A stretch of DNA of 64,000 nt from Bacteroidaceae bacterium. GTDB taxonomy: Bacteria; Bacteroidota; Bacteroidia; Bacteroidales; Bacteroidaceae. A model generated the notes under the pieces. That model ran no database searches. It worked only from the letters and a program-made list of their open reading frames with translations, and was not told the DNA's origin. Made by a program: the position numbers and the translations under genes. Positions 44,337-64,000 of this stretch are shown piece by piece; position 1 is the first letter of the stretch, and each line of letters starts with the position of its first letter. The stretch is taken from the NCBI GenBank assembly GCA_017560125.1, contig JAFYOS010000029.1:97178-161177 (forward strand). Direction: 5' to 3'.

Positions 44337-44579
44337 ATGCGAAAAATTAAATTATTAGTGATCTTAAGCGTCATGTTAGGAGTGATTGTAGCGTATAAAT
44401 CTCAAACAGGGTTTGTTGCGCATAATGAAATTATGTTAGAAAATATAGAGGCATTATCAGCCAATGAAAATCCCCACAAAACTGGTGATTGTTTCAATGT
44501 TGGAACTCTTTTATGTCCTGATGGCAATTATGTAGAATATATTTTTTATAATCTAGAGAATGAACACTTATTATATTAA
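44337..44579 (+). CDS. NVEALA-type secreted peptide precursor 1
   Basis: It has 80 residues: a basic start, hydrophobic stretch (about 6-20), a hydrophilic linker, then NIEALSA at residues 36-42, the NVEALA motif at which export cleavage is believed to occur. The mature peptide would be about 38 residues (ANENPHKTGDCFNVGTLLCP and on) with two cysteines, likely one disulfide. The next gene starts one base after the stop. Residue numbering of the motif is identical to that in the second precursor at 46460. What the family does is not known to me; signalling or antagonism are possible. Confidence 0.75.
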   Translation: MRKIKLLVILSVMLGVIVAYKSQTGFVAHNEIMLENIEALSANENPHKTGDCFNVGTLLCPDGNYVEYIFYNLENEHLLY

Positions 44580-44580
44580 G

Positions 44581-45126
44581 ATGAAAAGTTACATTACCAG
44601 AAGTCTTATCATAATCATTTGTACTTGTATTCATCTATCATGCCAAGATAAAGATAGATCTAATATAACACGCATGGTTACCGAATGGCAGGGGAAAGAA
44701 ATTCAGTTCCCTACAAATAGTACTTTTACAATACAAGGAAAGGACACTGTTAATGTAAACATGAATGCGGAACATAAGATTTTGGTATATGTTGATTCTG
44801 CCGGTTGTACTAGTTGTCGTTTGCAGTTAAACAAGTGGAAAGAGTTTATAGTTAAGGTGGATTCAGTAGCTAAAGAGCCTGTACAATTCTTGTTTTATCT
44901 AGCTCCAAAAAGTGTAAAAGAGGCACGTTACATTACAAGACGTGATGATTTTACGTACCCAATGTGTATAGACCTTAAGAATGAGATAAACAGTAAAAAC
45001 AATTTCCCCAAAGAGGATACATTTCATACGTTCCTTTTGGATGCGAAAAACAAAGTGCAAATAATAGGTAATCCCATTCACAATAATGCTGTACGGGAAC
45101 TTTATTTGAATGCCATCAGTAAATAA
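44581..45126 (+). CDS. Thioredoxin-like lipoprotein
   Basis: It has 181 residues starting at MKSYITR; an upstream ATG at 44560 overlaps the peptide gene. The signal has lipobox HLSC. The domain begins ILVYVDSAGCTSCRLQLNKW with a C76-T-S-C79 active-site pair in thioredoxin-like position and ends TFHTFLLDAKNKVQIIGNP, as in TlpA/redoxin folds. It probably reduces or oxidises cysteines in the periplasm. With the MauE-like protein at 57525 it fits disulfide handling of the Cys-containing peptides. Confidence 0.75.
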   Translation: MKSYITRSLIIIICTCIHLSCQDKDRSNITRMVTEWQGKEIQFPTNSTFTIQGKDTVNVNMNAEHKILVYVDSAGCTSCRLQLNKWKEFIVKVDSVAKEPVQFLFYLAPKSVKEARYITRRDDFTYPMCIDLKNEINSKNNFPKEDTFHTFLLDAKNKVQIIGNPIHNNAVRELYLNAISK

Positions 45127-45139
45127 TACCACCTGCAAT

Positions 45140-46228
45140 ATGAAAAACTGCGTATTACACATTCTGGCTATTTTATTATTGCTTACATCTTGTGCAAGCA
45201 ATAATTCAGAAAAAGAAACCGTAAGTGAGGTTAAAAAAGATAGCGTACTCACTGTAAAACGTCGTACCAGCGAACCGATAGAAACAATGATACTTTGTGA
45301 AAGTACATTTAATCGCGAACTTTCGGGAAACGGCAAGGTCGTTGCAAAGCGTTCTGCAGAGATGAGATTCTCATCATCAGAACAGATTGCACATATATGG
45401 GTACGAAATGGAGACAAAGTACGCAAAGGAGAGAAATTGGCACAACTCGACCTTTTTGCGCTTGAGCGTTCACTTGCACAAGCAAAAGACAATTTTGAAC
45501 AAAGCAAACTGGACTTGCAGGATGTGCTTATAGGCCGTGGCTATTCATTGGACGCGCAAGCCTCAGCTCCAGCCGATGAAGTTGAACTCGCAAAAGTAAA
45601 GAGTGGCTATAATAAAGCTCTAATAGCCTACGAACTTGCAGAGAATAATTTACGTAAAGCAACACTTGTAGCTCCTTTTGATGGAGTGATAGCCAACTTA
45701 AAATCAAAAGAGAATAATCAATCCTCCAATGATGTCTTTTGTATGGTAATAGATGACAAGAATCCTGAAGTGGAATTCTCTGTACTTGAAAGCGAATTGT
45801 CATTAGTAAAGCGCGGATACCCTGTATACATACAACCTTTTGTGAATAGTACCTCAGAAGCATTGATAGGAAGTGTTTCCGAAATAAACCCAATAGTTGA
45901 GAATAACGGAATGGTAAAGGTCAAAGCACAAGTAAAGAATAATGGTACTCTATTGCAAGGCATGAATGTAAACATACTGTTACGTCAGCCAATGGAGCAA
46001 GCACTTGTAATACCTAAAAGTGCGGTAGTAATGCGTTCGGGAAAAACTGTCGTATTTACTCGCGTAAATGGTAAAGCGCAGTGGAACTATGTGCTGATTA
46101 CAGCAGAGAATAGCGATTCGTGTGTTGTCGCACCTCGCAGCAAGGAATACGAGGGCCTTTCTGTCGGAGATTCCGTTATTGTTTCGGGTAATCTTAATCT
46201 TGCACACGAAACTGTATTGAATGATTAA
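45140..46228 (+). CDS. RND efflux periplasmic adaptor (HlyD/AcrA family lipoprotein)
   Basis: It has 362 residues from MKNCVLH. The lipobox is LLTSC. The usual adaptor order follows: barrel-sandwich half (AHIWVRNGDKVRKGEKLAQL), a hairpin of helices (about 95-155), the second half (LVAPFDGVIANLKSKENN), a beta-barrel and a membrane-proximal domain (ALVIPKSAVVMRSGKTVVFT). It bridges the RND permeases and the TolC-like protein encoded downstream. It is the only adaptor for two permeases in the locus. Confidence 0.9.
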   Translation: MKNCVLHILAILLLLTSCASNNSEKETVSEVKKDSVLTVKRRTSEPIETMILCESTFNRELSGNGKVVAKRSAEMRFSSSEQIAHIWVRNGDKVRKGEKLAQLDLFALERSLAQAKDNFEQSKLDLQDVLIGRGYSLDAQASAPADEVELAKVKSGYNKALIAYELAENNLRKATLVAPFDGVIANLKSKENNQSSNDVFCMVIDDKNPEVEFSVLESELSLVKRGYPVYIQPFVNSTSEALIGSVSEINPIVENNGMVKVKAQVKNNGTLLQGMNVNILLRQPMEQALVIPKSAVVMRSGKTVVFTRVNGKAQWNYVLITAENSDSCVVAPRSKEYEGLSVGDSVIVSGNLNLAHETVLND

Positions 46229-46229
46229 T

Positions 46230-46292
46230 GAGAGAATAAGGGAACGGGAAGCAACCAGTTTGTAAAAGTGCTTTCCCGTCCCCGACACTCTC
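46230..46292 (+). repeat. Structured intergenic element, copy 1
   Basis: This 63-base element lies directly after the adaptor stop codon. It is closed by GAGAG (46230-46234) and CTCTC (46288-46292). The inner stem is ACGGGAA with TTCCCGT, and the loop contains AACCAGTT and AGTG. A copy with the same boundaries and nearly the same sequence occurs at 52503-52564. It could be an RNA element, processing site or mobile palindrome. Confidence 0.7.
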
Positions 46293-46340
46293 ACCCAACA
46301 AGAAAGGAGGTGAATCGGCTGCGAAGATAAAAAGAATTAT

Positions 46341-46376: not shown

Positions 46377-46459
46377 GCGAGTTTAAGTGTCGGTTGCTCG
46401 CATTAAGAAAATTGGCGCAAGTAAAAATAAAATGAAATACAAATTTAAATTGAGATACA

Positions 46460-46681
46460 ATGAAGAAAATATTTTATACAATGGCTGTTGCAGCCGCTTT
46501 GTTTGCTGGGTATACAGCCTATGAGTTCGAAAATAAAAGTAATCTCGAATGGTTCAAACTCGTAAATATTGAAGCTTTGGCTGCAGAGGGAGAAAAAGTA
46601 ACATGCGAATACGACCCAGGAGACACATGTAAGGTGGGCGTAACAGATGTGCCAGATTGGGATGAAGACACCTGGTTCTAA
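46460..46681 (+). CDS. NVEALA-type secreted peptide precursor 2
   Basis: It has 73 residues: a short signal-like hydrophobic stretch (5-19), a linker, then NIEALAA at residues 36-42, aligned exactly with precursor 1. The mature peptide of about 31 residues is acidic (EGEKVTCEYDPGDTCKVGVT and on) with two cysteines. Tryptophan and acidic residues dominate the tail (DWDEDTWF). It is separated by 231 bases from the adaptor gene and followed by a long-loop hairpin, so it may be produced in excess over downstream genes. Confidence 0.78.
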   Translation: MKKIFYTMAVAAALFAGYTAYEFENKSNLEWFKLVNIEALAAEGEKVTCEYDPGDTCKVGVTDVPDWDEDTWF

Positions 46682-46807: not shown

Positions 46808-47863
46808 ATGTTTAATAAATATTTATATATATCTATTATTGCCATATTGTGCATGATATATACTTCTTGTCAAAAAGAAAAAAATATAGTTATTAATAAA
46901 TCTACAATTGAATTTGATAAATTTCATTTAGAAGACTCTCTTTTTTTTACTACAATAGAAGCTAAAGATGTTGATTCTGTTTTATATAACCCGAAGAAAA
47001 TCTTATATCATAAGAATCACTTATTTGTTCAAGATTTTAAATCTGGAGAAGGAAAACACATTAAACTATTTTCTTTAAATGATTGTAAAACTATAGCATC
47101 TTTTGCAAATTACGGGAATGGTCCAGAAGAATTATTGGCATGTGATATGTGTATTTTGAATAATAATTTATGGCTTTATGATTTATCTCAAAACACGATA
47201 CATTATGTTAATATAGATTCTATATTAAATAATAAATTTAAATTATGTAAATACAATTTGAATAATGGCAATTATTATTCATTTGCGATGTTAAATGACT
47301 CAATATTGTTGGGCACCAACAATATTAATTCGGATAACAAAATATCATATGAAAATATCTTAACTTCAAGCGTTGTTAGAAAAGGAATTTATGATTATTA
47401 TAATGAAAATATTAGTCTCCCTGCATTAAATGATGCAGCTAGATGTTATATAAAGTGTAATCCCAAAACAAATGAGATTGCTTTGTTATATCGATATACA
47501 GATTTACTAGAAATATACATGCCTAATGGGGATTTTAAATGCTCATCATATGGTCCTGAACGTTCCGATATAATGATACATCCTACCGCAGAAAGAGCAA
47601 ATAAAACTAAAGAAACAAAAAAAGCCTTTGTAAACACCTATGTAACAAGCCAGTACATTTATGCATTATATTCAGGTGCTAAAAAGGGTGAAGAAAACTG
47701 GGCTAATGGAACCCAACTATTTGTATATTCATGGAACGGAGAACCTATAAAAAAATATCATTTAAGCCAGCCAATATATACATTTAGTGTTGATGAGGAC
47801 AAGAAAATCCTTTACAGTTATTCTTTGAATGAGGATACTTTTATTACAGCGAAATTAGATTAA
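46808..47863 (+). CDS. 6-bladed beta-propeller (TolB-like) lipoprotein
   Basis: It has 351 residues. The lipobox is IYTSC (Cys21). The propeller has the family motifs IASFANYGNGPEELLACD, LWLYDLSQNTIHYVN and LFVYSWNGEPIKKYHL. It is paralogous to the products of 41655-42743 and of the truncated gene at 40634. It is coupled to the RND permease gene by a 4-base gap. I infer an outer-envelope binding protein for the exported peptide or a partner of the exporter. Extremely AT-rich codons mark it off from the permease gene that follows. Confidence 0.78.
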   Translation: MFNKYLYISIIAILCMIYTSCQKEKNIVINKSTIEFDKFHLEDSLFFTTIEAKDVDSVLYNPKKILYHKNHLFVQDFKSGEGKHIKLFSLNDCKTIASFANYGNGPEELLACDMCILNNNLWLYDLSQNTIHYVNIDSILNNKFKLCKYNLNNGNYYSFAMLNDSILLGTNNINSDNKISYENILTSSVVRKGIYDYYNENISLPALNDAARCYIKCNPKTNEIALLYRYTDLLEIYMPNGDFKCSSYGPERSDIMIHPTAERANKTKETKKAFVNTYVTSQYIYALYSGAKKGEENWANGTQLFVYSWNGEPIKKYHLSQPIYTFSVDEDKKILYSYSLNEDTFITAKLD

Positions 47864-47867
47864 TAAC

Positions 47868-50800
47868 ATGATATACTTCCTCCTTCGCCGCCCCATTGCC
47901 GTATTCATGGCATTCACAGCCTGCTTCATCATAGGCGTGGTAACGTACAAAACGTTACCAGTATCGCTATTGCCGGACATCGCCATTCCTGAGATTACAG
48001 TACAGGTAACAGGCGAGAACACTTCGGCACGTGAATTAGAAAACACCGTGATGCGCACCCTGCGTTCCCAGCTTATGCAGGTGGGGCGGCTTGAGGATTT
48101 GCGTAGCGAAACACGAGACGGTTCAGGCATTGTACGTATGCGTTTTGAGCATGGCACAAATACCGACCTTGCATTTATAGAGGTAAACGAGAAGATAGAC
48201 GTCGCAATGAGCTATTTGCCTAAAAGCACCACACGTCCTCGCGTGATAAAGGCAAGTGCAACAGATATTCCCGTTCTATACCTCAACCTTACATTAAAAG
48301 AGGAGAAAGCTGATGCTCCCGATGCCGAAGAGCGTTTCCTTGAGCTATGCGACTACGCAGAGAATGTTGTTCGCCGCCGTCTCGAACAATTGCAGGAGGT
48401 AGCAATGGTAGATATGTCAGGACTTGCGCACAAGCAAGTACAGATAGTACCCAAACACTCCAAGATGGAAGCTTTGGGAATAACCGTTCAAGATATTGAA
48501 AATGCACTCGCAAGCAACAATGTCGAGCCGGGAAGCATGACAGTGCGAGAAGGATATTATGAGTACAACATACGTTTCTCTACGATAGTACGTACAGTAG
48601 AAGATATAGAGAACATCCCATTAAGGCACGACGGACGCATAATGCAGATGAAAGAGCTTGCCGACATACGCATTGTGCCGACAACAGAAACAGGACTCAC
48701 ACAGTACAACGGCAAGCGCAGTGTGAGTCTTGCAATAATTAAACAGGCCGATGAGAATATGGAGCGCATGAAGGCTGCGCTTAACGGCACTGTGCGCTCG
48801 CTTAAATATGCCAACCCCGATATAAATTTCGATGTAAGCCGTAACCAGACGGAACTGCTCGATTACACCCTTACCAATCTGCAACAGAACCTGACACTCG
48901 GTTTCTTGTTCATACTTATCGTTGCTGTTCTGTTCATGGGTGGAGTACGTTCACCTGTGGTGATAGGTATCTGTATGGTGGTGGCAATAGTCATCAGCTT
49001 CATATTCTTCTACCTTTTCGGAATGTCGCTCAATATTATTTCCCTTTCAGGACTTATCCTTGCAGAGGGTATGATGATAGACAACGCCATAATAGTAACT
49101 GAGAATATCACCCAATACCGAGACATGAGTTATAGCGTCGATGAAGCTTGCGCCCGAGGTACAAGTGAGGTGATAACACCAATGCTCTCATCCTCACTGA
49201 CAACCATAGCCGTATTCTTCCCATTGGTATTCATCAGTGGAATAGCCGGTGCAATATTCTATGACGAGGCATTCTCGGTAACCGTAGGACTTATTGCATC
49301 ATACATCACCGGAATAATCCTGCTTCCCGTACTTTATAAAATTATGTTCAGTGCAAAGTTACCTGCATGGATAAAGAAACGCATAAAAACAGACAAACTA
49401 ACCGTAAAATTTAATAAGGTAAACAGCATAAACCTGAATACCCCTTTGCAACATTTCTACGACAAAGGCATTGAATGGGTATTTTCACATAAAGCACTCA
49501 CTGTGCTATTCACACTGCTCTCAATTCCTTTGTGTGTACTTATGTTCAACATCCTACCCAAAGAACGTATGCCACAAACAAGCCAAACAGAGCTGTCGGT
49601 ATATATCGATTGGAACGAGAATATACACCTCGATGACAATCGCCAGCGTATGGAAGAACTGGAAGCATTCTGCACCGCATACGCCGAGGAGAGCAGCACC
49701 CACATAGGCATACAGCAGTACCTGTTGGAGAAGAGCCTTGTTTCCACAACCGAGACCGAACTCTATTTGCGTACAGCAACAACCGAATATTTAGAGCAGT
49801 TGCAACAAGCATTGAAAAAAGAACTTTCGGAGAAATACCCTCTTGCAACAATAAGTTTCCACGAACCGGAAAATGTATTCGAGCGTATCTTCGACACCAA
49901 TGAGCCTGAACTCGTTGTAGAACTATACAACAAAGACAAAGAGAAACAGAACAACATTGCCCTCCTTCGTCAAATGGAGAGCAAGATAAACGATATTGCA
50001 GGAGAAAAAGCAACAGCCCCTGCCACAGGACAGCAGATAAACCTTACCATTGACCGCGAACGCCTTCTTATGTACGGCGTAACGTACAACGAAATAACCA
50101 CTCTATTGAAGAACGCACTGCGCGATAACAAGATTGCAACACTTCGTTCATTCCAGGACTATCTGCCCATAACCATTGCCGGTGGCGAGCAGACATTGAA
50201 CGGTATCCTCAACCGCACGTTCGTAACCATTAGAGCAACCGATGGAACACAAAACAGGCATCAAGTGCCACTGAGAGCATTTGTGAAGCAATCACTTGGT
50301 GAAGACTTAAAGACTATTACCGCAGGAACTGCAGGCGAATACATTCCATACACCTTTGCCGAGACCGAGAATGCACAGAAAATAACCAACAACATAAAGG
50401 ATGCCATGCGTGGCAACAGCGATGATTGGGAGGCTGGTTTTTCGGGGGCATTCTTCTCAAGCAATAAGATAATAAACGAACTTGTGGTAGTGCTCTTTAT
50501 CTCTCTGCTGCTGATGTACTTCATCCTTACATCACAGTTCGGCAGTTTCGTGCAACCGCTTATCGTGCTTGCCGAAATACCAATCGATGTTGGCTTTGCA
50601 TTGGTAATTATGAGTATGCTCGGCATAAGCCTGAACCTGATGAGTGCCATCGGCATTGTCGTAAGCTGCGGTATCATCATCAACGACTCTATTCTTAAAT
50701 TGGATATGATTAATGTACTTCGTAATGAAGGAACACCATTGATGGAAGCAATACACACTGCCGGAAGCCGACGTTTGCGCTCCATTGTGATGACATCGCT

Positions 50801-50978
50801 CACCACAATACTTGCAATGGTACCATTGCTCTTCACACACGACTTCGGATCGGAACTACAAAAGCCACTTGCCATAGCAATGATAGCCACAATGACAGTG
50901 GGAACGCTTGTAAGCCTCTTCGTCATTCCGCTCATATATTGGTTCATATACCGTAACAGACAGATTAAAGTACAATAA
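47868..50978 (+). CDS. RND-family efflux permease 1
   Basis: This is an inner-membrane proton-driven exporter of 1036 residues with the usual 12-helix, two-repeat design. N-terminal helix RRPIAVFMAFTACFIIGVVT and two large periplasmic loops are visible. Helix 4 has GMMIDNAIIVTEN, with one Asp where AcrB has two. The second half ends LSAIG-type motifs (LNLMSAIGIVVSCGIIINDS). The outer-membrane channel gene follows by 13 bases. It may work with permease 2 as a heteromer (as MdtB/MdtC do) or each may be separate. The substrate is unknown; peptide export is inferred from context. Confidence 0.9.
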   Translation: MIYFLLRRPIAVFMAFTACFIIGVVTYKTLPVSLLPDIAIPEITVQVTGENTSARELENTVMRTLRSQLMQVGRLEDLRSETRDGSGIVRMRFEHGTNTDLAFIEVNEKIDVAMSYLPKSTTRPRVIKASATDIPVLYLNLTLKEEKADAPDAEERFLELCDYAENVVRRRLEQLQEVAMVDMSGLAHKQVQIVPKHSKMEALGITVQDIENALASNNVEPGSMTVREGYYEYNIRFSTIVRTVEDIENIPLRHDGRIMQMKELADIRIVPTTETGLTQYNGKRSVSLAIIKQADENMERMKAALNGTVRSLKYANPDINFDVSRNQTELLDYTLTNLQQNLTLGFLFILIVAVLFMGGVRSPVVIGICMVVAIVISFIFFYLFGMSLNIISLSGLILAEGMMIDNAIIVTENITQYRDMSYSVDEACARGTSEVITPMLSSSLTTIAVFFPLVFISGIAGAIFYDEAFSVTVGLIASYITGIILLPVLYKIMFSAKLPAWIKKRIKTDKLTVKFNKVNSINLNTPLQHFYDKGIEWVFSHKALTVLFTLLSIPLCVLMFNILPKERMPQTSQTELSVYIDWNENIHLDDNRQRMEELEAFCTAYAEESSTHIGIQQYLLEKSLVSTTETELYLRTATTEYLEQLQQALKKELSEKYPLATISFHEPENVFERIFDTNEPELVVELYNKDKEKQNNIALLRQMESKINDIAGEKATAPATGQQINLTIDRERLLMYGVTYNEITTLLKNALRDNKIATLRSFQDYLPITIAGGEQTLNGILNRTFVTIRATDGTQNRHQVPLRAFVKQSLGEDLKTITAGTAGEYIPYTFAETENAQKITNNIKDAMRGNSDDWEAGFSGAFFSSNKIINELVVVLFISLLLMYFILTSQFGSFVQPLIVLAEIPIDVGFALVIMSMLGISLNLMSAIGIVVSCGIIINDSILKLDMINVLRNEGTPLMEAIHTAGSRRLRSIVMTSLTTILAMVPLLFTHDFGSELQKPLAIAMIATMTVGTLVSLFVIPLIYWFIYRNRQIKVQ

Positions 50979-50991: not shown

Positions 50992-52473
50992 ATGAACGCG
51001 ATTGTTAAATATACGACACTTGCACTATTGCTCTTTGCAACAGTTGCTAATGCTCAAGAGATACGTCTCACACTCGATGATGCAATAACATTGGCTACCG
51101 ATAGCTCTTTGTCGGCAGTAAAGGCAAAGAGTTCCTACCAATCGGGATATTGGGAGTATCGTTCATATAAAGCTGCACGTTTGCCCAGTCTTACACTTAA
51201 CCTTACTCCTGCACAATACAACCGTAATATCGTGCAGCGATACGACTCGCAGAACGACCGCGACGTGTTCCGTACACAGCAATCCTACTACGCTTCAGGC
51301 GGGTTCTCCATCGTGCAGAATGTCGATTGGACGGGAGGTACACTATATCTTAACTCCAGTCTAGATTTCTTGCGTAGTTTCGGCGATGAATCCTACTCGC
51401 AGTTCAATTCTGTTCCTTTCAGAATAGGTTACTCACAGAGCCTTTTGGGATACAACAAATTCAAATGGGACAAGCTTATCGAGCCACTGAAATACGAGAA
51501 GAGAAAAAAAGAACTTACATATAATATTGAGCAAATATCCGAAGAGGCAATAACATACTTCTTCTCACTCGCACAAGCACAGGCTGAATATGACCTTGCT
51601 GTGAAGAATCTTGCATCGTGTGACACACTTTACAGAATTGGATGCGACCGCCATAAGATTGCAGCAATCTCCAAAGCCGACCTGCAAACACTGAAACTCG
51701 ATGTGATAAATGCAAACAACACCCTCAAGAATTGCGAAATATCCTTGCGCCGTGCAATGTTTCAGTTGGCATCATTCCTGAATATGGACAAAGAGCAGAC
51801 ACTGAAGATAGAGCTGCCGAAACGTCCCGAATTGTTTACAATATCTGCTGCAAAAGCATTGGAATATGCCCGCGAAAATAACCCGCAGTTCCTGACATTG
51901 AAACAGAATATTCTTGAAAGCCGTCAGACTGTCGATCGTACAAAAAAAGAGAGTGGAATAAATGCCTCATTCAATGCCAGCATAGGTTTCAACCAGGTGG
52001 GTAGCGAATTTAATGAAGTATGGCACAATCTGCTGCAACAGGATATGGTCTCAGTCGGGCTTTCTATCCCTTTGGTCGATTGGGGAGTGCGTAAGGGAAA
52101 ATACAATATGGCAAAGAACAATCTTAATGTAGTGGAAATTTCTTCGCGTCAGACCAAACAGCAGATTGAGGAAGAGGTGATAATGACAGTGAACGACTTT
52201 AATGTACAAGGCGGAATGATTGAGAGTGCCGAGGAGGCTCGTATGTTGGCAGAATCGGCATACGAAGATACCCGTATGCGCTTTATCATTGGAAAATCTG
52301 ACATCAACAGTCTTTCAATGGCACTCACACGCAAGGATACTGCTGAGAAGAATTATATATATGCATTGCGTAACTATTGGCTCAGTTACTACAAGATACG
52401 CAAACTGACGATGTATGACTTTACGAATGATTGTCTGATAGATTCAGGTAAAGAGATAATTAGCAAATGGTAG
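50992..52473 (+). CDS. TolC-like outer-membrane efflux protein
   Basis: It has 493 residues. A signal peptide (ending VANAQ) is followed by two repeats of the OEP fold with long helices: ALEYARENNPQFLTLKQNIL in the second half, and LDDAITLATDSSLSAVKAKS in the first. It forms the trimeric exit duct for the RND pumps encoded on both sides. It has normal TolC-family length. It is followed by the second copy of the structured element. Confidence 0.9.
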   Translation: MNAIVKYTTLALLLFATVANAQEIRLTLDDAITLATDSSLSAVKAKSSYQSGYWEYRSYKAARLPSLTLNLTPAQYNRNIVQRYDSQNDRDVFRTQQSYYASGGFSIVQNVDWTGGTLYLNSSLDFLRSFGDESYSQFNSVPFRIGYSQSLLGYNKFKWDKLIEPLKYEKRKKELTYNIEQISEEAITYFFSLAQAQAEYDLAVKNLASCDTLYRIGCDRHKIAAISKADLQTLKLDVINANNTLKNCEISLRRAMFQLASFLNMDKEQTLKIELPKRPELFTISAAKALEYARENNPQFLTLKQNILESRQTVDRTKKESGINASFNASIGFNQVGSEFNEVWHNLLQQDMVSVGLSIPLVDWGVRKGKYNMAKNNLNVVEISSRQTKQQIEEEVIMTVNDFNVQGGMIESAEEARMLAESAYEDTRMRFIIGKSDINSLSMALTRKDTAEKNYIYALRNYWLSYYKIRKLTMYDFTNDCLIDSGKEIISKW

Positions 52474-52502
52474 ATTTTTTCATCATAAAAATAAGTTAAA
52501 TA

Positions 52503-52564
52503 GAGAGAAAAGGGAACGGGAAGTAACCAGTTACCGATAGTGTTTTTCCCGTTTCGAGACTCTC
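52503..52564 (+). repeat. Structured intergenic element, copy 2
   Basis: This 62-base copy has GAGAG (52503-52507) and CTCTC (52560-52564) ends, the ACGGGAA/TTCCCGT stem, and the same AACCAGTT and AGTG loop blocks as copy 1 at 46230-46292. It ends 31 bases before the ATG of permease 2. The loop middle differs between the copies while the stems are kept, which argues for a conserved structure. Confidence 0.7.
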
Positions 52565-52595
52565 AAAATTGAATTAAAGTTTTGATATAATAAAA

Positions 52596-55748: not shown

Positions 55749-57518
55749 ATGACACGACAAAATATAACACATATTGCAAGCTACATAATGGTATCTATAG
55801 TATCATTATGCTTGCTGTGGCTTACACTGCTTGATGTAAACACCGGCTGGTGCGAGGAGATGCCACAGTTGCTTTATGTGATGCTCGCAGTAAATGCTAT
55901 TGCATTTCTGTCTGTATTATTCATTGACAAAATAAACAAAATCTGTTGGTTGGATAAAATTGTCCTGTTGTGGTTCGTGTATATCACATTCAACTATTGG
56001 TTCATATCTCCCTATCCTGCCGGCGAACGATACTTTACATTTTTGTCTTCGCTGCTGTTATATATTATTTTACGATACACTATTTCGAAAAACAGCAAAC
56101 ATATATTGTTGCTTGTTTTGTCCATCGGCGGTATTTATGAGGCTGTGCTTGGAATAATGCAATTGCTAGGATTGGAGTATTCAAGACACTCGCTGTTTGA
56201 TATTACAGGTACATTTTTCAACCCCGGGCCGTACTCTGCATATCTTGTAGTTGTTCTAGCAATGGCAACTGCGTACATCTATAAACGCAGGAAAATATAC
56301 AACTATCCCTATTTCAAAAAAGGAATGCCGCTTAAACGCATTCTGCCCACTTGTATATATCTAATTATAGGGATTGCACTTTATGCTACAGTTGTCACAC
56401 TGCCTGCCACATGGAGCCGTGCTGCTTTTGTCGCATATTTTGCCGTATTGATGGTATTATTCTATAAGAGACACAAAAAATGGGTATTGGGGCTTATTAT
56501 TGCATCAGCACTTGCCGGTGTCGGTCTCTATTTTGCAAAGCAAAGCTCTGCCAATGGTCGCGCCCTTATGAACATAGTATCTATGCGTGCAATAAAAGAA
56601 GAGCCATTGATCGGATGTGGCATCGGAGGTTTTGCCAATGCTTTTGCAAACAGTCAGGCTGAATATTTCAAGGAGAATTCCGATTCACCGTTTGTAGATG
56701 TCGCAGGAACACCGGAATACGCGTTCAACGAACTGATGCAGATAGGTGTCGAACAGGGCGTGATTGGAATGTTGTTCTTTGCGATAATAGCAATCGCAAC
56801 ATTTATAATACTGCTGCGCAAAAGAAACGAACTTGCATATGCTTGGCTAGCATTGTTGGTGTTCTCATTCTTCTCCTACCCATTCTCATTGCAACCGTTA
56901 AGAATAATGGCAGTACTGTTTGTTGCTTGTGCAGCCGGTAGCATTAGAAAAGAGAAAGATAACTATAAGATAAGATATAAACTGCCACATCTTGTCATTT
57001 TATCGCTCTGCGTAATAATTATATCCGAAATTATTCCTCGCGTGGAGCATAAGGTAAGCATAAACAGAAACTGGGAGATAATATCGGGTTACCAAAGTGC
57101 CGCTTTTGCCGATGACTATGCCGAACAGTATAACACACTTATTGACAATCCTAAATTTCTTTTCGCTTACGGCAAAATGCTCAATAGTATGAAACGCTAT
57201 AATGACAGCAATGCCGCATTGAGAGATGGACTGAAAGTAAGTACCGACCCTATGTTTCATGTTGTAATGGGCAACAATTACAAAGAGCTTGGGGCATATA
57301 AAGAGGCAGAGGAACATTACAGAAAAGCATTTTATATGAATCCCAATAAAATGTATCCTCTCTATCAACTGTTGCAGATGTACATTGATGTTAATGATAC
57401 AATAAATGCAAGGCAAATGGCACAACGTATAGTGGATTTTAATCCAAAGATACGTTCAAAGGCCACTGATGATATGAAGAAGTTTGCAAAAGAGTATTTA
57501 ACCAAGGAACAAGAATAG
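55749..57518 (+). CDS. O-antigen ligase-like (Wzy_C) membrane protein with C-terminal TPRs
   Basis: It has 589 residues with about ten transmembrane helices (1-400). The Wzy_C signature is around 265-350 (IKEEPLIGCGIGGFANAF, FNELMQIGVEQGVIGMLFF). The usual His of HNxxL is Phe here. C-terminal tetratricopeptide repeats (about 475-575) include NNYKELGAYKEAEEHYRKAF. Family members attach glycans to lipid or protein (WaaL, PglL). Here no glycan genes are near, so the substrate may be the secreted proteins of the locus, or the fold may have another use. Position inside the operon makes it a core component. Confidence 0.8.
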   Translation: MTRQNITHIASYIMVSIVSLCLLWLTLLDVNTGWCEEMPQLLYVMLAVNAIAFLSVLFIDKINKICWLDKIVLLWFVYITFNYWFISPYPAGERYFTFLSSLLLYIILRYTISKNSKHILLLVLSIGGIYEAVLGIMQLLGLEYSRHSLFDITGTFFNPGPYSAYLVVVLAMATAYIYKRRKIYNYPYFKKGMPLKRILPTCIYLIIGIALYATVVTLPATWSRAAFVAYFAVLMVLFYKRHKKWVLGLIIASALAGVGLYFAKQSSANGRALMNIVSMRAIKEEPLIGCGIGGFANAFANSQAEYFKENSDSPFVDVAGTPEYAFNELMQIGVEQGVIGMLFFAIIAIATFIILLRKRNELAYAWLALLVFSFFSYPFSLQPLRIMAVLFVACAAGSIRKEKDNYKIRYKLPHLVILSLCVIIISEIIPRVEHKVSINRNWEIISGYQSAAFADDYAEQYNTLIDNPKFLFAYGKMLNSMKRYNDSNAALRDGLKVSTDPMFHVVMGNNYKELGAYKEAEEHYRKAFYMNPNKMYPLYQLLQMYIDVNDTINARQMAQRIVDFNPKIRSKATDDMKKFAKEYLTKEQE

Positions 57519-57524: not shown

Positions 57525-58424
57525 ATGGAAAAGGGGATTAAAATATTGAAAATATCGACACAACTGATGCTCGGATTGACATTCGTTGTTTCGGGTGTAC
57601 TTAAGGCTATGGATATTTATGGTACAGAACTGAAGTTCATTGAATATGCAAACAGCACCGGACTTCAATTCCTCGCTGAGTATAATATGCCTTTGTCGGT
57701 AATGTTGTGTGCATTCGAGATATTCTTGGGACTATGGTTGATGATATTCATTTACCGTACAATATCGCTGAGCCTGCTTGTTGCAACAACGTTTCTTTTC
57801 ACGGGAACAATAATTTACCTGATGATTAATCCCGAAAAGAACATTACCGATTGCGGGTGCTTCGGAGAGATATTGCCAATGGGGATGAGTGCAAGTTTAC
57901 TAAAAAATATAGTAATCCTTATGCTTGCAACTTATCTATTGTGGAGTGCAAGAAATGTACAGATTAAGTTCAATAAAAAATATGTAGCTGGTATTTTCGG
58001 ATGTTTGTTTGCATCGCTGCTGCTACCGATATATACAGCAAATAATTTGAGTCTTTACAACCCTACCGGCTATGGCGAAGGCACTGATTTAAGAGGAAAT
58101 GAGGATTTTGTAGTGCTTGACGACAACTTTGAAAACGTTACTGACAGTCTGCTGAGCACGTCTGATGAGGTATATATTTTTGTATTGAAACAACAGCCTA
58201 CACAATCGGATGAATTCAAGATGAAAGATATTTGGGAGAAATGTAAAGGTAATAGTATCAATTGCTTTTCGCTTGCACACAATGAGTATAAGTTACCTAA
58301 CGGCATTAATCAATACTATGCAGATATCTTGATGCTTAAATCACTTGTCAGGAGTAAAGAGAATGGAGTGATTGTGCTTAAAAATGGGATTGTAAAGAAT
58401 GTGCATATATTAAAAGATTATTGA
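57525..58424 (+). CDS. MauE/DoxX-like redox membrane protein
   Basis: It has 299 residues. Four transmembrane helices (about 12-32, 58-78, 82-102, 125-142) form a MauE/DoxX unit with NPEKNITDCGCFGEIL (C110 and C112) at the membrane edge. A fifth segment at about 150-170 leads to a soluble C-terminal domain (about 180-299). MauE-type proteins pass electrons or help form disulfides in partner proteins. With the thioredoxin-like lipoprotein it fits oxidation of the Cys-containing secreted peptides. Confidence 0.82.
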   Translation: MEKGIKILKISTQLMLGLTFVVSGVLKAMDIYGTELKFIEYANSTGLQFLAEYNMPLSVMLCAFEIFLGLWLMIFIYRTISLSLLVATTFLFTGTIIYLMINPEKNITDCGCFGEILPMGMSASLLKNIVILMLATYLLWSARNVQIKFNKKYVAGIFGCLFASLLLPIYTANNLSLYNPTGYGEGTDLRGNEDFVVLDDNFENVTDSLLSTSDEVYIFVLKQQPTQSDEFKMKDIWEKCKGNSINCFSLAHNEYKLPNGINQYYADILMLKSLVRSKENGVIVLKNGIVKNVHILKDY

Positions 58425-58455: not shown

Positions 58456-59337
58456 ATGAAACTGATACTCAAATATCTGAATAAAGCAATGGATATATTC
58501 CTCTATACTTCGCTTGCAGCAATAATAGTTGTTGCGAGCTACTATCTGTGCAGGATATTCATTGCCGACCAATTTATCATTCCAAGTGATTCAATGTATC
58601 CGACACTGCAAATAGGCGACAGAGTGTGGGTGAATAAATTGGTTGCAGGGGCTCGTATTTATAATGATATTGATTCGGCGAATAGCAGTACATTACAATC
58701 GTGGAGAACAAGGGGTATGAGAAATATTGAAAGAAACGATATTCTTATATTCAACTATCCTATTAATGACAATAGAATATCATTCAAAATAAATTATGTA
58801 TATGCCAAACGATGCATAGCATTGCCAGGTGACAGCATAAGTGCTGTTGAAGGGTTTTATAAAAACAGTAATTATGAAAGTGCGTTAGGCTATGAAAAAG
58901 CTCAAGAGTATTTGAGCAATTATCCCGATTCTATGCTGCACGAAAGTATTAGAAATACAATTACTCCTTCGCGCGATAAATATCCGTGGAGTATAAAGAA
59001 TTTCGGACCTATATATGTACCCCGCAAAGGTGATGTAATAAAATTAAATGCCGAGAATGCATTGTTTTATTCAAATATATTGGAGTTTGAAACGGGGAAG
59101 AAGATAAGAGTGGATAGTGCCGGTAAAGTTTATCTTGGTGACGAACCGGCCAGTTATCATATATTCACTAACAATTACTATTTTATGGCTGGCGATAATG
59201 TTATAAACTCCGGAGATTCGCGCTATTGGGGCTTTGTTCCCGAAGATTACATAGTAGGAGTGGTAGGGTTTATTCCTTATGCAATAGATAAAAACACAAA
59301 TGAGATAAAATACGACAGAATATTGAAATTTTTATAA
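58456..59337 (+). CDS. Signal peptidase I (S26 family), locus-specific
   Basis: It has 293 residues. One N-terminal transmembrane segment (about 16-36) precedes the Ser nucleophile S46 in IPSDSMYPTL. The general-base Lys is K118 in YVYAKRCIALPGDS. The closing box is FMAGDNVINSGDSRYWGFVP. All catalytic elements are present. A housekeeping LepB is expected elsewhere, so this one probably serves the locus. Likely substrates are the NVEALA precursors, whose cleavage motif lies unusually far from the hydrophobic core. Confidence 0.9.
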   Translation: MKLILKYLNKAMDIFLYTSLAAIIVVASYYLCRIFIADQFIIPSDSMYPTLQIGDRVWVNKLVAGARIYNDIDSANSSTLQSWRTRGMRNIERNDILIFNYPINDNRISFKINYVYAKRCIALPGDSISAVEGFYKNSNYESALGYEKAQEYLSNYPDSMLHESIRNTITPSRDKYPWSIKNFGPIYVPRKGDVIKLNAENALFYSNILEFETGKKIRVDSAGKVYLGDEPASYHIFTNNYYFMAGDNVINSGDSRYWGFVPEDYIVGVVGFIPYAIDKNTNEIKYDRILKFL

Positions 59338-59351: not shown

Positions 59352-61424
59352 ATGAGACTTATATACTCTTTACTTTTTGCAAGTACACTCCTTGTATCAT
59401 GCATCAATCATGCAGGTGTTGATAAAACTCTTTCACTAGCAGGCGAAAATCGTGCAGAATTGGAAAAAGTGCTTACTCACTACAAAAACAGTGGCGAGCG
59501 CAAGAAATATCGCGCAGCATGTTACCTCATAGACAATATGAAGTATCATGGTTCGTATGGCAAAATAGAATACCTAGATAACCGTATAGATTCTCTAGCA
59601 CGTGAAGCAGATGTTGCATATTACAACGATGTAAAAGGAATGTCGCACAAAGAGATATTGTCCGATGATATTAAACGTAAAATGGACAATGCCGGCAAAG
59701 AGTATTGCAAAAAACTTGGGGAATTATCATACGATTCTGTAAAGTACAGCAATAGATTCCATCATGATTACAAAGAAATTGATTCAAAGTTCTTGATAGA
59801 GCATATAGACCACGCTTTTGAAATGTGGGAAACATCACCATATGCAGAAAACCTCTCGTTCGATGAATTCTGTGAATATCTGCTTCCTTACCGCTCAATA
59901 CCCGGATACAAACATTTGGACAACAATGTAGAATTCTATTCGTGGTTCGGTAAGTATTTTACAAATGTTGGTTGCGACTCGCTTGCTGACTATCTAAAAC
60001 TTTACCATACAACAATGCTCAATACCCATCGCTATCTCGGAAACTTTAAGTATGGATATACTATGAATCCAGGACTGTGCTGCGCTTTCTACGAAGACAC
60101 CCGCGATTGCTACGACATGGCATATCTGTGTGCCGGAATTTTCCGTTCGATAGGAATCCCTACATATGTTGCACTTAACTTAGCTTATCAAGACCTTAAT
60201 GGAAAGCATGTATTCTGCGCCTCTATGGATAAGAATGGCAGTTGGAAATTCTATGACCCTGAGTGGTTGTTCGAAGGGACCAATGAAGAATATATGAAAG
60301 AAAAACGATATATGAACATTCATCGTCATTCGTTTGCCTTACCTAAAAAAACGGTTTTATCACATTGCTATCAAAGCAATTATATTCCCGGTGCTTTTAA
60401 ACAATTTTGTGAGGATGTGTCAGCAAATGCAACCCCGACTGTGCAATATGATATAAAATATAACGGCAACGAAGATTATCCGGTTGCCTATCTTGCATCG
60501 TTCAGCAGTACAGGAGCATTGATACCTGTTACATGGGGAAGGAAAAGTGGAAAATCTTATATTTTTGATAACGTGATGCTTGATAGACTCTATTTCCCTG
60601 TTATATACAATAACGGTAGCATTACCCCCTTTGCATCACCGTTTCTGCTGAAAAGCGACTATAGCCAGCACAAAAATTACAGTTATATTGAATACACCAA
60701 CGAAGGAAATAAGACCACCACGGGTATATGCACACGCAAATATCCGATAAAGCGGTCAACAAAAGAACGCATAAAAAATATGGTCGGAATACATGTGATT
60801 GCTTCGGATAATTACGATTACAGTGATTGCGACACATTGGCTATGATAGATTTTTTACCCGAACCTCAGCTGCAGGATTTGCCATTGAAACGGGAGCGAC
60901 CATACAAATACTATCGCATACAGACAGGCAGTCATGATTGGTTGAACCTCTCAGAGGTTTATTTCCTTGCACCAAAATCATACGGATACAGCAATTCACT
61001 TCCGACTCCGGAGTTACCGATTCTTTCTGATGTGGTGTACAACGACACTGTTGAATATGTTCGATTCAGAGACGTACCCGAAGAAGAGTTTCTACGGCGT
61101 GCCGAAAATGATGGCAATATGCAGACAATAAGCGCTACTTCGTGCGTGAACCTGCGGTTCAAGGAACAACGATATATGACGAAAGTACGCTTTGCGCCTT
61201 TGAATGCCGAGAATAACATCTTTCCTGAACATAAGTATATTCTTTACAAATGGGCTGGTATAGACTGGGAGCAAGTAGCGCAAAAACAAGCAACAGCACA
61301 TTATCTCAGTTTTGATAGTGTACAACCCGGCTGTCTTTATTGGCTGAAGAATATAACAACCGGCCAAGAAGAATCGCCATTTGTCTTTGATGAAAATGGT
61401 AAACAATGCTTTGTAAATGAGTAA
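59352..61424 (+). CDS. Transglutaminase-like lipoprotein
   Basis: It has 690 residues with lipobox LLVSC (Cys17). The helical N-terminal part runs to about 240. A transglutaminase-like core has a plausible triad: Cys253 in DTRDCYDMAYL, His286 in NGKHVFCA and Asp302 in KFYDPEW. A beta-rich C-terminal part follows. Such enzymes act as proteases, amidases or crosslinkers in the envelope. I infer processing or crosslinking of a secreted product. It ends 37 bases before the Cys-rich secreted protein gene. Confidence 0.78.
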   Translation: MRLIYSLLFASTLLVSCINHAGVDKTLSLAGENRAELEKVLTHYKNSGERKKYRAACYLIDNMKYHGSYGKIEYLDNRIDSLAREADVAYYNDVKGMSHKEILSDDIKRKMDNAGKEYCKKLGELSYDSVKYSNRFHHDYKEIDSKFLIEHIDHAFEMWETSPYAENLSFDEFCEYLLPYRSIPGYKHLDNNVEFYSWFGKYFTNVGCDSLADYLKLYHTTMLNTHRYLGNFKYGYTMNPGLCCAFYEDTRDCYDMAYLCAGIFRSIGIPTYVALNLAYQDLNGKHVFCASMDKNGSWKFYDPEWLFEGTNEEYMKEKRYMNIHRHSFALPKKTVLSHCYQSNYIPGAFKQFCEDVSANATPTVQYDIKYNGNEDYPVAYLASFSSTGALIPVTWGRKSGKSYIFDNVMLDRLYFPVIYNNGSITPFASPFLLKSDYSQHKNYSYIEYTNEGNKTTTGICTRKYPIKRSTKERIKNMVGIHVIASDNYDYSDCDTLAMIDFLPEPQLQDLPLKRERPYKYYRIQTGSHDWLNLSEVYFLAPKSYGYSNSLPTPELPILSDVVYNDTVEYVRFRDVPEEEFLRRAENDGNMQTISATSCVNLRFKEQRYMTKVRFAPLNAENNIFPEHKYILYKWAGIDWEQVAQKQATAHYLSFDSVQPGCLYWLKNITTGQEESPFVFDENGKQCFVNE

Positions 61425-61461
61425 TTAACTTAATATTAATATATATATAATAAGTAGTATT

Positions 61462-61983
61462 ATGAAAATAAAAAAATTAATTACAGTTGGAGTAATTGCA
61501 TTAGTAGTTATCTTAAATGTTAACTATGCAATAGGTGGTTATGGATATACATCGTCGAATTTGTTAAAGGTCGCTCATGCGGGAATACCACCAAGTGATG
61601 ATTCAAGCTCAGACTCTGATTCTGGTTCCGGTTCTGAGTCTGACACTAGTTGGGGTAATAATTTTACATCAAGTAATGAATGTTGTGATACACTTTTTGA
61701 CTTAACAAATTCGAGATTTTGTAATATTTCAGTAAGTAAGTCTCCTGCTTCACAACTATGTGTAACTGGATATGTATGGACTTTCTATAATTGTGATTCG
61801 ATAGAGATATATCGTGATTCTACTAAAACAAATATAAAACCACAAGCACCATTAGATGTATGTTATGTACAAAAAAGTGAGATAACAAATATGGTTACAA
61901 CTGATATTGTTATTTGTATATACGATGGAGGACCATGTAATATTTGTGAGGAAGTTAGAGGAGTATGTCCACCTTTAAATTAA
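61462..61983 (+). CDS. Secreted Ser/Asp-rich, Cys-rich protein with NVEALA-like leader
   Basis: It has 173 residues. The leader resembles the peptide precursors: basic start, hydrophobic core (about 5-24), linker, then LLKVAHA, with probable cleavage after Ala40. Right after it comes an acidic serine-rich linker (DDSSSDSDSGSGSESDTSW), followed by a domain with ten cysteines, among them an adjacent pair and GPCNICEEVRGVC at the end. It is probably disulfide-bonded and exported. It could be a larger cargo or the effector of the system. No known family is recognised. Confidence 0.7.
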   Translation: MKIKKLITVGVIALVVILNVNYAIGGYGYTSSNLLKVAHAGIPPSDDSSSDSDSGSGSESDTSWGNNFTSSNECCDTLFDLTNSRFCNISVSKSPASQLCVTGYVWTFYNCDSIEIYRDSTKTNIKPQAPLDVCYVQKSEITNMVTTDIVICIYDGGPCNICEEVRGVCPPLN

Positions 61984-61986
61984 AAT

Positions 61987-64000
61987 ATGTATTATATTTT
62001 TTTATTCTTATTTTTATTTACCAGTTCCTTAGTAAGGGCAAATAATCATTTGGACACCCTTGTGCTTAAAAGCCTAGCAACCTACAGTGCCCTGCCGCAG
62101 GAACGCGTGTATCTGCATTTTGATAATAGCGGATACTATCTGGGCGAGACAATGTGGTTCAAGGCATACTGCGTGAGTGGCAACGGCGCGACCGTTGCTG
62201 CTCCGCAGAGCAAGGTGCTATATGTGGAACTTTGCGCGCCCGAGGGTTATGTGGTAGAAACGAAAAAGTTCAAACTCGATGAAAAAGGCTGTTGCAACGG
62301 CGAATTTGAGCTTAAGCCATCGTTGCTGTCGGGCTATTATGAGGTGCGCGCGTACACACGCTATATGCTTAATTGGGGCGACGATGCGGTGTTCAGCCGC
62401 GTGTTTCCTGTGTATGATAAGGTGAACGGCGACAATTACGATTTTCGCAACATCCTCGACCGCAAGCGAGGATTCCTGTACCGTGGCGAGTGGGTGACGC
62501 AAGAGAGCAAAGAACCTACGCTCAATTTTTACCCCGAGGGTGGGCATTTAATAAATGGCATTGAAACAAAAGTAGCCTTTGAACTGCGCGACAAAGGCGG
62601 AAAGCCACTTAACGATACAATAGCAATTTTTGCAAATAAGGAGCAAATACTGACCACCGCTTCCACTCACAATGGAAAAGGATACTTTATGTTCACTCCA
62701 CAAGCTGACGTAAAATATCACGCCGAGGTTAAGCAGGGCAAGAAAGAGTATAAATTCGACCTTCCTACTATTGAAAATAGTGGCGCAACCATTGCTGTAA
62801 AACAAGATGGCGACAGCATACGATTCTCTGTTGCAAGCAATCTGCCCGCACAAGCAACGGGCTTTGTAATTCTTAATCGCAACCTTGCGTACGTATATAA
62901 AAAGAACATCAAAGAGCTTGCCATGCACCGCGACAAGCTGCGCGAGGGAGTGAACCGCTGTCTGCTGCTCACAGCCGACGGCACACCCATTAGCGAGCGA
63001 ATGTTTTTCGTTAAGCACTCTGCACCGCAGCAGGGTGACCTTGTTCCGATGAAATTAAAAGCAGAAATCAACGGAATTTCATCCGAGGAAAAGACATTCT
63101 TCAAGCCCTACCGCAAACTGACAGTAAAAATCAGCAGCGAAGATGGCTCTCCCCTGCCAAAGGATGGCAGTTACTCGGTGGCTGTCACAGGCGAAGAGAA
63201 CAGCATCCTCACAAGCTACTCGAACAACATCTACACACAAATGTTGCTCGCCTCGGAGCTTAAAGGATATATTCCCGACGCGGCGCAGTACTTTGCCGAT
63301 GACAGCGAAAGTACCCGTAACAACCTTGACCTGTTGATGCTCACTCATGGCTGGACAGCATACGATTGGAGCATGCTTGCGGGCACAAATAGTACATTCT
63401 CTATAAAGCACCCAATCGAGAAAGGTATTCAAGTGAAAGGTTACTTTATGAAGAAAGTCCCCGTGAAAAAATGGGGCAAATTAGGAACATTTAAGGTAAT
63501 TCCACTAAAGGACGTAAACGTTCGTTTCGACATTTGCTACGAGGACAGCGTAATTTCCAATTACGACTTTGTAACAGGCGACGAAGGAAAATTCACTCTT
63601 GAGATTGAGGATTTTTACGGCAAAAAGTACGCTTCGCTGACTCCCACACTCACCGGCAAGCAGATACAGGACACGCTGTTTAAATTCTCGCTCGACAAAT
63701 ACTTCTCGCCTAAATTCCGCCTGTTCGACTATTGGCAGCGCAACACAGGTAGCAGCGTTGAGCAGAAAAAAGCGACAGCTACAGCCACGTTCCTCGACGA
63801 AACAAACGAACTTGAAGCTGTTGATGTAACCTCAAAGAAATATAAAAAACGCACCAGCCGTCCGCCTAAAAGCGAGATTCGACTCGACTTTATGGACGAG
63901 TGGGAGTATGCGCAGGATGTAAGTTACCTTATTACCCCTAACGACAACTGGATTTCTTATAAGGTAAACGACGTCAGCGACCTTTTGGAAGATGCACTCG
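61987..64000 (+). CDS. MG2/macroglobulin-like secreted protein, 5' part
   Basis: The frame is open from ATG at 61987 (3 bases after the previous stop) to the window end, 671 codons, so the C-terminus is missing. A signal peptide ends near LVRA. The sequence ALPQERVYLHFDNSGYYLGE and following TMWFKAYCVSG is the MG2-like start of large Bacteroidetes envelope proteins, some of which end in a TonB-plug-like domain. Base composition returns to a more balanced GC here. It may be an old chromosomal gene or the last member of the operon. Function is unknown. Confidence 0.8.
   Translation, partial: MYYIFLFLFLFTSSLVRANNHLDTLVLKSLATYSALPQERVYLHFDNSGYYLGETMWFKAYCVSGNGATVAAPQSKVLYVELCAPEGYVVETKKFKLDEKGCCNGEFELKPSLLSGYYEVRAYTRYMLNWGDDAVFSRVFPVYDKVNGDNYDFRNILDRKRGFLYRGEWVTQESKEPTLNFYPEGGHLINGIETKVAFELRDKGGKPLNDTIAIFANKEQILTTASTHNGKGYFMFTPQADVKYHAEVKQGKKEYKFDLPTIENSGATIAVKQDGDSIRFSVASNLPAQATGFVILNRNLAYVYKKNIKELAMHRDKLREGVNRCLLLTADGTPISERMFFVKHSAPQQGDLVPMKLKAEINGISSEEKTFFKPYRKLTVKISSEDGSPLPKDGSYSVAVTGEENSILTSYSNNIYTQMLLASELKGYIPDAAQYFADDSESTRNNLDLLMLTHGWTAYDWSMLAGTNSTFSIKHPIEKGIQVKGYFMKKVPVKKWGKLGTFKVIPLKDVNVRFDICYEDSVISNYDFVTGDEGKFTLEIEDFYGKKYASLTPTLTGKQIQDTLFKFSLDKYFSPKFRLFDYWQRNTGSSVEQKKATATATFLDETNELEAVDVTSKKYKKRTSRPPKSEIRLDFMDEWEYAQDVSYLITPNDNWISYKVNDVSDLLEDAL

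Follow-up and report, generated by a model that had tools for sequence, protein, structure and literature searches.

A candidate self-controlled secreted-peptide locus with NVEALA peptides and a membrane sensor in a Bacteroidaceae genome

Gene content of the locus

The window analysed here is a 64,000-nucleotide stretch of DNA from a Bacteroidaceae bacterium (assembly GCA_017560125.1, contig JAFYOS010000029.1, positions 97,178 to 161,177 of the forward strand), and its right end carries a locus that encodes two NVEALA peptides together with a signal peptidase I (S26), redox proteins and an RND-type transport set. A sequence-only reading had taken fourteen of these genes for a dedicated system of peptide maturation and export. 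Our analysis supports this in part: the gene set is conserved, co-occurrence alone points to cleavage of the peptides, and export by RND/TolC is moderately supported.

An open reading frame (ORF) check recovered all fourteen collinear genes on the + strand at the coordinates first given, and the claim of mostly short gaps also held, with 10 of the 13 gaps at 37 bases or less (in order, -20, -17, 231, 126, 4, 13, 122, 6, 6, 31, 14, 37 and 3 bases). The unit starts earlier than this span, with the regulator at 42885-43985. This control half (the sensor), the special status of NVEALA-1, the pairing of peptides with propellers and the mobile-element setting are additions to the first reading. The genes are as follows:

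41655..42749, -, TolB-like propeller lipoprotein beside the sensor (PF15869 2.4e-62)
42885..43985, -, membrane sensor-regulator (membrane span, periplasmic domain, membrane span, C-terminal winged helix), divergent from NVEALA-1 (sensor model)
44337..44579, +, NVEALA-1, sensor-adjacent (inducer-like) peptide, core after NIEALS (Pfam 26.9 bits)
44560..45126, +, thioredoxin-like (Trx-like) lipoprotein, CxxC (weak AhpC-TSA; own conserved family)
45110..46228, +, RND periplasmic adaptor (TIGR01730 3.4e-37)
46460..46681, +, NVEALA-2, effector-type peptide (Pfam 20.8 bits)
46808..47863, +, TolB-like propeller lipoprotein, partner of NVEALA-2 (PF15869 6.8e-32)
47868..50978, +, RND transporter 1 (ACR_tran 2e-157)
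50992..52473, +, outer membrane efflux protein, TolC-like (OEP 1.5e-33)
52596..55742, +, RND transporter 2 (ACR_tran 7.3e-96)
55749..57518, +, O-antigen-ligase-like membrane protein with C-terminal TPR (Wzy_C 2.4e-13)
57525..58424, +, MauE-like redox membrane protein (MauE 4.7e-17)
58456..59337, +, dedicated signal peptidase I (S26 2e-28)
59352..61424, +, transglutaminase-like lipoprotein (Transglut_core 0.025; Cys253/His286 conserved)
61462..61983, +, 173-aa Cys-rich secreted protein, candidate larger substrate (no family match)
61987..64000, +, MG2-domain protein, incomplete (MG2 7.6e-7, 29.8 bits, below the 32.8 cut-off)

The last gene is incomplete because the contig ends at the end of the window. 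A Pfam/NCBIfam scan of the locus returned NVEALA twice, the RND adaptor, a TolB-like propeller, ACR_tran twice, OEP, Wzy_C with TPR, MauE and S26. Against PF14055 (cut-off 27 bits), NVEALA-1 and NVEALA-2 score 26.9 and 20.8 bits singly, and NVEALA-1 reaches 27.2 with its neighbours in frame.

Each catalytic protein had been said to keep its key residues, whose catalytic roles we presume. This stood for S26, a match to its Pfam/NCBIfam profile (Lys118 invariant and Ser46 above 90% in 11 aligned sequences), for the Trx-like protein (C83 invariant and C86 above 90% in 13), for the MauE-like protein, which retains CGC, and for Cys253 and His286 of the transglutaminase-like protein (invariant in 16 sequences; in a wider alignment of 33, each is missing from 3). 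It failed for the third residue of the Cys-His-Asp triad of the latter, which is not conserved in the alignment, and for the O-antigen-ligase-like protein, in which 27 of 28 sequences have Phe or Tyr at what we take to be the position of the catalytic His of WaaL and PglL. The best PDB fold match of this protein is WaaL (7tpg, E 2.4e-5, TM-score 0.55 by target). It shares the Wzy_C fold with WaaL O-antigen ligases and O-oligosaccharyltransferases but differs in its C-terminal TPR and in the Phe/Tyr; having the fold without the presumed catalytic His, it is a doubtful agent of glycosylation.

The transglutaminase-like protein scores 15.3 bits against PF01841 (cut-off 23; E 0.025), and a PDB fold search with it gave no match at E<=0.001. 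Its retained Cys and His suggest that it could cut or crosslink; lasso-peptide leader proteases contain a transglutaminase-like domain, according to PMC10885120. All three parts of a tripartite RND pump (ACR_tran, adaptor and OEP) lie in the locus. MdtABC-type pumps likewise have one adaptor and two RND subunits, and MdtBC heterotrimers are known (PMC8277102); the locus set differs in lying with peptide genes, and its substrate is presumed. The lipoproteins gave no clear surface-export signal, with a mean of 0.57-0.77 acidic residues at +2 to +6 by a crude lipobox pattern.

Conservation of the gene set

We searched 198 genomes of the order with profiles for NVEALA, transglutaminase-like, Wzy_C-TPR (Wzy-TPR), Trx-like and S26 proteins. 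NVEALA peptides were found in 16 genomes (E<=0.01), in 7 of them above the Pfam cut-off. At thresholds of 1e-3, 1e-8 and 1e-4, respectively, 31 genomes had the transglutaminase-like lipoprotein, 18 had Wzy-TPR and 14 had the Trx-like lipoprotein. S26 matches split into 11 places with E <1e-50, the window included, and others that, among the matches listed, reach 6.7e-34 or weaker. Within 15 kb, a Trx-like gene lies beside 20 of 40 NVEALA places and an NVEALA gene beside 12 of 20 Trx-like places. Random placement (2000 runs) gave means of 0.63 and 0.67 with maxima of 5 and 4, under a null with a single genome size that ignores contig breaks and an NVEALA list that includes weak, probably spurious matches.

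Because the Trx-like alignment was not conserved enough as a scan query, the dedicated S26 was used against 84,980 species genomes. The best 80 loci, on which the following counts rest, comprised 44 dedicated and 36 housekeeping-peptidase loci, a division by rank order that was set after viewing and for which the S26 tree provides an independent check. Two or more further classes of the set occur in 39 of the 44 dedicated loci versus 1 of the 36 housekeeping loci, and in all 19 dedicated loci of at least 20.7 kb. The 19 complete dedicated loci hold NVEALA in 17 cases, propeller in 16, Trx-like in 15, Wzy-TPR in 15, transglutaminase-like in 13, adaptor in 12, any RND in 11, OEP in 10 and MauE in 2, versus adaptor in 1, any RND in 1 and OEP in 0 of 18 control loci of the same minimum length. 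MauE is restricted among the loci, its counts being low bounds because the MauE model rests on two sequences.

In a tree of 91 S26 proteins, 49 fall in one clade with 100/100 support, the window S26 among them, and 42 of these have at least two other classes nearby; two of the window genome's own LepB proteins (three places) fall in the housekeeping part. Hosts include Phocaeicola vulgatus ATCC 8482, P. massiliensis, P. coprophilus, Bacteroides rodentium, B. oleiciplenus, B. timonensis, Prevotella, Paraprevotella, Massilibacteroides and, beyond the order, Sphingobacterium haloxyli. Gene-name rows for B. thetaiotaomicron in PMC10434189 (BT0662 O-antigen ligase, BT0664 propeller, BT0667 signal peptidase I, BT0669 RND adaptor) suggest such a locus there as well; no other relevant paper with these four tags was found in the openly licensed PubMed Central literature.

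Co-occurrence had been proposed as the check on the sequence-only reading, and NVEALA, propeller, Trx-like, S26, transglutaminase-like, Wzy-TPR and RND genes do cluster in many genera when set against the housekeeping control. It is this co-occurrence, and nothing further, that points to maturation by the dedicated S26. Several of the families are individually common in Bacteroidota and S26 occurs in 190 of the 198 order genomes, as a chance collinearity of ordinary envelope genes would have it; the neighbourhood counts, the S26 tree and the core-only search described below already refute that explanation, to which we give practically no credence.

NVEALA peptides and the membrane sensor

NVEALA leaders end in N-V/I-E-A-L-A, followed by hypervariable cores that are mostly even in Cys. 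In the window, NIEALS (NVEALA-1) and NIEALA (NVEALA-2) stand downstream of a hydrophobic stretch, and both peptides are found, at 4e-8 and 1.2e-8, by a leader model trained on other peptides only. The mature lengths of 38 and 31 residues first given were off; those predicted are 39 and 32. The strict motif is present in 57 of 87 NVEALA ORFs, by a pattern that presets N(-6) and A(-3) and restricts the remaining motif letters; outside the pattern, L at -10 (46/57) and E at +3 (47/57) recur. The predicted cut falls at residue 43 (median), 25 residues past the hydrophobic stretch; in ordinary signal peptides the cut lies nearer to that stretch. Paralogs from the same locus share 72% of leader positions versus 26% of core positions (32 pairs), and in one locus with nine peptides (L224) the leaders are 82% identical and the cores 20%. 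Cys makes up 7.4% of core versus 1.1% of leader residues, and its number is even in 49 of the 57.

Of 85 NVEALA genes in related loci, at least 62 are directly followed by a propeller gene: 53 were found by our own model, and of 21 unlabelled next genes 10 were tested, giving nine DUF5128 propellers and one DUF4221. Left of the sensor-side propeller in the window, 40634-41380 holds a propeller gene, probably truncated, that matches positions 2-203 of the 296-position TolB_like profile. The 173-aa Cys-rich protein had no family match in the Pfam/NCBIfam scans and was rejected as an NVEALA peptide (leader profile E 0.98, rank 240). In locus L098, a 177-aa protein with 34 Cys adjoins an MG2 gene (ORFs 6-7), paralleling 61462-64000 of the window, and in L170 an MG2 gene directly adjoins NVEALA genes. 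The pair of Cys-rich protein and MG2 protein is perhaps an alternative to the peptide-propeller pair.

The sensor gene can be read as a TTG-started ORF from 44003 or from the ATG at 43985. A Pfam scan of the protein found no match; a model trained on 18 sensors of other loci, with the window excluded, finds it at 9.3e-12 (model positions 10-301 of 335), with 1.3e-6 for the winged-helix part alone. It has two predicted membrane spans. The equivalent place elsewhere is occupied by proteins with Trans_reg_C matches (L063, 2.3e-7; L069, 5.3e-5, under the cut-off) and, in L073 and L074, by histidine kinases. The winged-helix and kinase sensors have their periplasmic domain in common (hhalign 45 versus at most 12.5 in 20 column shuffles), and the sensor model finds the kinases at 3e-7 and 1e-6.

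An NVEALA gene lies within 600 bp of 19 of 27 membrane sensors, NVEALA genes being 129 of the 2128 genes in all loci; in this count L223 repeats L166, and here and in the core-only flank test the sensor model included the window sensor. Peptides adjacent to sensors form a class. Exactly two Cys are found in 15 of 18 of them versus 16 of 81 others, and C-x3-[GA]-x2-3-C in 17 of 18 versus 13 of 81. The self-similarity of their cores was matched by none of 5000 random sets, and on leave-one-out 16 of the 18 cores ranked 1 to 3 among 82. The consensus of this pheromone-like class is GE...CxGxGSVDCP....KVE.V. The core of NVEALA-1 ranked 3 of 82 on leave-one-out (E 0.0012), behind L141_19 and L227_11, and by its sequence NVEALA-1 is a member of the class. 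These two are also the top matches among the other peptides; L227_11 has a sensor 813 bp away, and upstream of L141_19 a 111-aa ORF, perhaps a remnant, matches the sensor model at 1e-5.

When only the core was modelled (35 positions, leader excluded), 23 of 301 family genomes gave a total of 37 places. A membrane sensor lies within 1.5 kb of 26 of the 29 places whose flanks were covered, or 23 of 26 when L272, L278 and L297, already in the core model, are excluded; the remaining 8 places are 7 model loci and L235. In the order sample, core matches occurred in just 3 of 277 genomes, all carriers. Similarity among sensor periplasmic domains correlates with that among peptide cores (Mantel r 0.58, p 1e-4).

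The same peptides could belong to a maturation locus without signalling, in which all NVEALA peptides are antagonistic, the regulator senses the state of the envelope or nutrients, and NVEALA-1 is conserved as founder of the operon. Hypervariable Cys-paired cores with shared leaders and one partner gene each do resemble bacteriocin-immunity arrays, and carriage on Phocaeicola plasmids and the conjugation genes alongside (see below) would suit that explanation. It does not account for cores being conserved specifically beside sensors and not elsewhere, even for the sensor-peptide pair that lies inside the array of L224, and we hold it to be unlikely, though the most serious of the alternatives weighed here.

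Proposed pathway and genomic setting

We judge it rather likely that the locus is a self-controlled secreted-peptide locus with an inducer plus effectors, served by S26, redox, O-ligase-like, transglutaminase-like and RND parts. The comparisons support the gene set and its conservation, the leader and core architecture, the S26 clade and the peptide-propeller and sensor-peptide pairings; every biochemical step, the direction of export, the binding of ligand to sensor and the effector role (killing or signalling) we infer. The NVEALA prepeptides would cross the inner membrane via Sec and remain anchored by their hydrophobic N-terminus. The dedicated S26 would then cleave after N-V/I-E-A-L-A/S, about 25 residues past the hydrophobic stretch; Trx-like proteins, with MauE in some lineages, would set the Cys pairs; and the transglutaminase-like and O-ligase-like proteins might trim the peptide or modify it. 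It would leave the periplasm by way of the adaptor, the two RND subunits, which may form a single heteromeric pump, and the TolC-like channel. NVEALA-1 would act as inducer: the divergent membrane winged-helix sensor would recognise the mature peptide and drive the locus. NVEALA-2 and its relatives would be diversified effectors, each with a propeller lipoprotein partner serving as immunity protein, receptor or carrier. Competition is the role to which we lean first, signalling comes somewhat behind it, and some other role is the least expected.

Class II bacteriocin and peptide-pheromone loci of Gram-positive bacteria, such as pneumococcal blp and com, are three-component loci that likewise have a shared leader with variable cores, a conserved inducer beside a membrane sensor, a leader protease and exporter in the locus, and one partner gene per peptide. 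The NVEALA locus differs in that its leader ends in NVEALA and not in a double glycine, S26 stands in place of a C39-ABC protein, RND-TolC is the candidate exporter, and the sensor role usually falls to a membrane winged-helix one-component protein. No C39 peptidase-ABC or double-glycine leader domain was found among the 17 proteins scanned, and the locus is therefore likened to a class II locus and not classed as one. An inducer beside a membrane sensor is seen here in position and in core conservation, with binding and induction predicted. For core modification of the kind seen in ribosomally synthesised and post-translationally modified peptides (RiPPs), the locus offers candidate modifiers only.

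Bacteroidetocins (PMC6671954) and Bacteroidales RiPP clusters (PMC10352776) likewise yield small secreted Bacteroidales peptides. In the RiPP clusters, GG-motif precursors are associated with peptidase-containing ABC transporters, and the main text of PMC10352776 has no signal peptidase, RND, thioredoxin, propeller or transglutaminase terms. No paper with the word NVEALA and no description of the pathway was found in Creative Commons-licensed PubMed Central, a set without subscription papers and preprints. A bolder proposal, which we put forward tentatively, is that this is a peptide quorum-sensing and weapon pathway of the Bacteroidota's own: an S26-cut disulfide-type pheromone would exit through RND-TolC, its detection across the envelope by a winged-helix or kinase sensor in the membrane would turn on the array of hypervariable effectors and their propeller partners, and plasmids and conjugative elements would spread it. 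RND export of ribosomal peptides, if shown, would be an added secretion route. The locus could serve signalling or competition among gut Bacteroidota. It supplies a precisely defined pair of peptide and sensor, along with candidates for a dedicated leader protease and for an export route, and it occurs in cultured strains, for example P. vulgatus ATCC 8482, which has a complete locus (L150, NC_009614 82088-102978), with related parts on Phocaeicola plasmids.

Several observations weigh against the inducer-effector reading. On the enzyme side, the presumed catalytic His of the O-ligase-like protein is replaced, 8 of the 42 S26 proteins on the housekeeping side of the tree are system-associated, and 7 of the 49 in the dedicated clade are without two other classes, several of them at contig ends. 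On the sensor side, L158_7 (rank 38) falls outside the sensor-adjacent class and L074_12 scores poorly (rank 15); 3 of the 29 core-model places have no sensor (L279:6371, L280:11029 and L294:2964); and three counted sensors are fragments or have one predicted span. The Mantel correlation may stem from shared descent, first place in the operon could alone put NVEALA-1 beside the regulator, and comparing intergenic regions by their words revealed no shared operator, though it picked up the hairpin repeat described below. We know of no role for the propellers and the 173-aa protein. The window genome has an estimated contamination of 6.4%, and two Phocaeicola plasmid stretches (below) show no annotated RND gene. 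RND genes lie near just 11 of the 19 complete loci. Genome G121 has NVEALA-propeller clusters (L079, L080), but at the thresholds used the searches for transglutaminase-like, Wzy-TPR and Trx-like proteins gave no match in it, and its S26 reaches only housekeeping level (1.1e-21); the accessory set is therefore not always needed. These propeller arrays, with NVEALA and many propellers, may be the older core.

The eight complete loci without nearby RND genes and the NVEALA-propeller pairs without other classes in G121 also favour another explanation, in which the peptides act as components of the periplasm or outer membrane, for instance structural parts on propeller lipoproteins, and RND-TolC exports something else or protects the cell. 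The excess of adaptor, RND and OEP genes over the control loci given above speaks against it, and small size, a high Cys content and hypervariability are characteristic of secreted peptides; we consider it improbable, more so than a maturation locus without signalling.

As to the setting of the locus, an integrase-like gene and transfer genes lie to its left, and the locus is therefore probably cargo of a conjugative element whose right end lies beyond the contig:

15709..17163, +, integrase-like gene, left side of the presumed conjugative element (Phage_int_SAM_5 4.4e-9)

The stretch 15709-40464 holds integrase-like, AAA/Toprim, TraG, TraM, DUF4138 and coupling protein genes, with the transfer genes between 24417 and 40464 and the coupling protein at 38281-40464. 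A pyruvate-phosphate dikinase gene also lies left of the locus. Among same-genus genomes, neither the 6 listed for the Trx-like protein nor the 20 listed for the inducer core gave a match, which fits acquisition of the locus. Four of 72,556 plasmid records, from Phocaeicola, carry S26 relatives at E<=1e-25; on the two annotated ones, NVEALA, propeller, O-antigen ligase and transglutaminase genes adjoin the signal peptidase, and megablast found no near-identical copies of the locus on plasmids.

Three DNA or RNA elements lie within the locus:

44036..44045, 10-C tract between the sensor and NVEALA-1, about 50 bases upstream of the sensor ATG, possible slipped-strand switch
46229..46294, +, structured repeat copy 1, RNA hairpin (z -5.12)
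52502..52566, +, structured repeat copy 2, RNA hairpin (z -3.40)

The 10-C tract, the sole C/G run of at least 8 in the 64 kb (0.06 expected), is a possible phase-variable switch; 18 other sensor-peptide intergenic regions had no C/G run of at least 7. The hairpin copies flank the NVEALA-2/propeller/RND1/OEP block and could be a regulatory RNA element or a cassette-insertion scar. The two occurrences of their 20-base core in the 2.6-Mb genome are both at this locus, and no viral contig has it; a 15-base core was in no compared locus outside this genome. Rfam gave no match over 40000-64000, the hairpin repeat included, and no tRNA genes were found over 12000-64000. Sigma-70-like sites numbered 30 versus 20.7 +/- 4.7 in shuffles, by a model that is not informative for Bacteroidota, and a Bacteroides-type promoter pattern had one match versus 1.63 expected.

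On the P. dorei plasmid pBdorCL06T03-4 (L209), an IS612B-type and another transposase lie between a shortened ORF in the redoxin place and S26. Inside the presumed conjugative element of the window, 21351-22379 (-) holds an Abi_2 abortive-infection-like gene.

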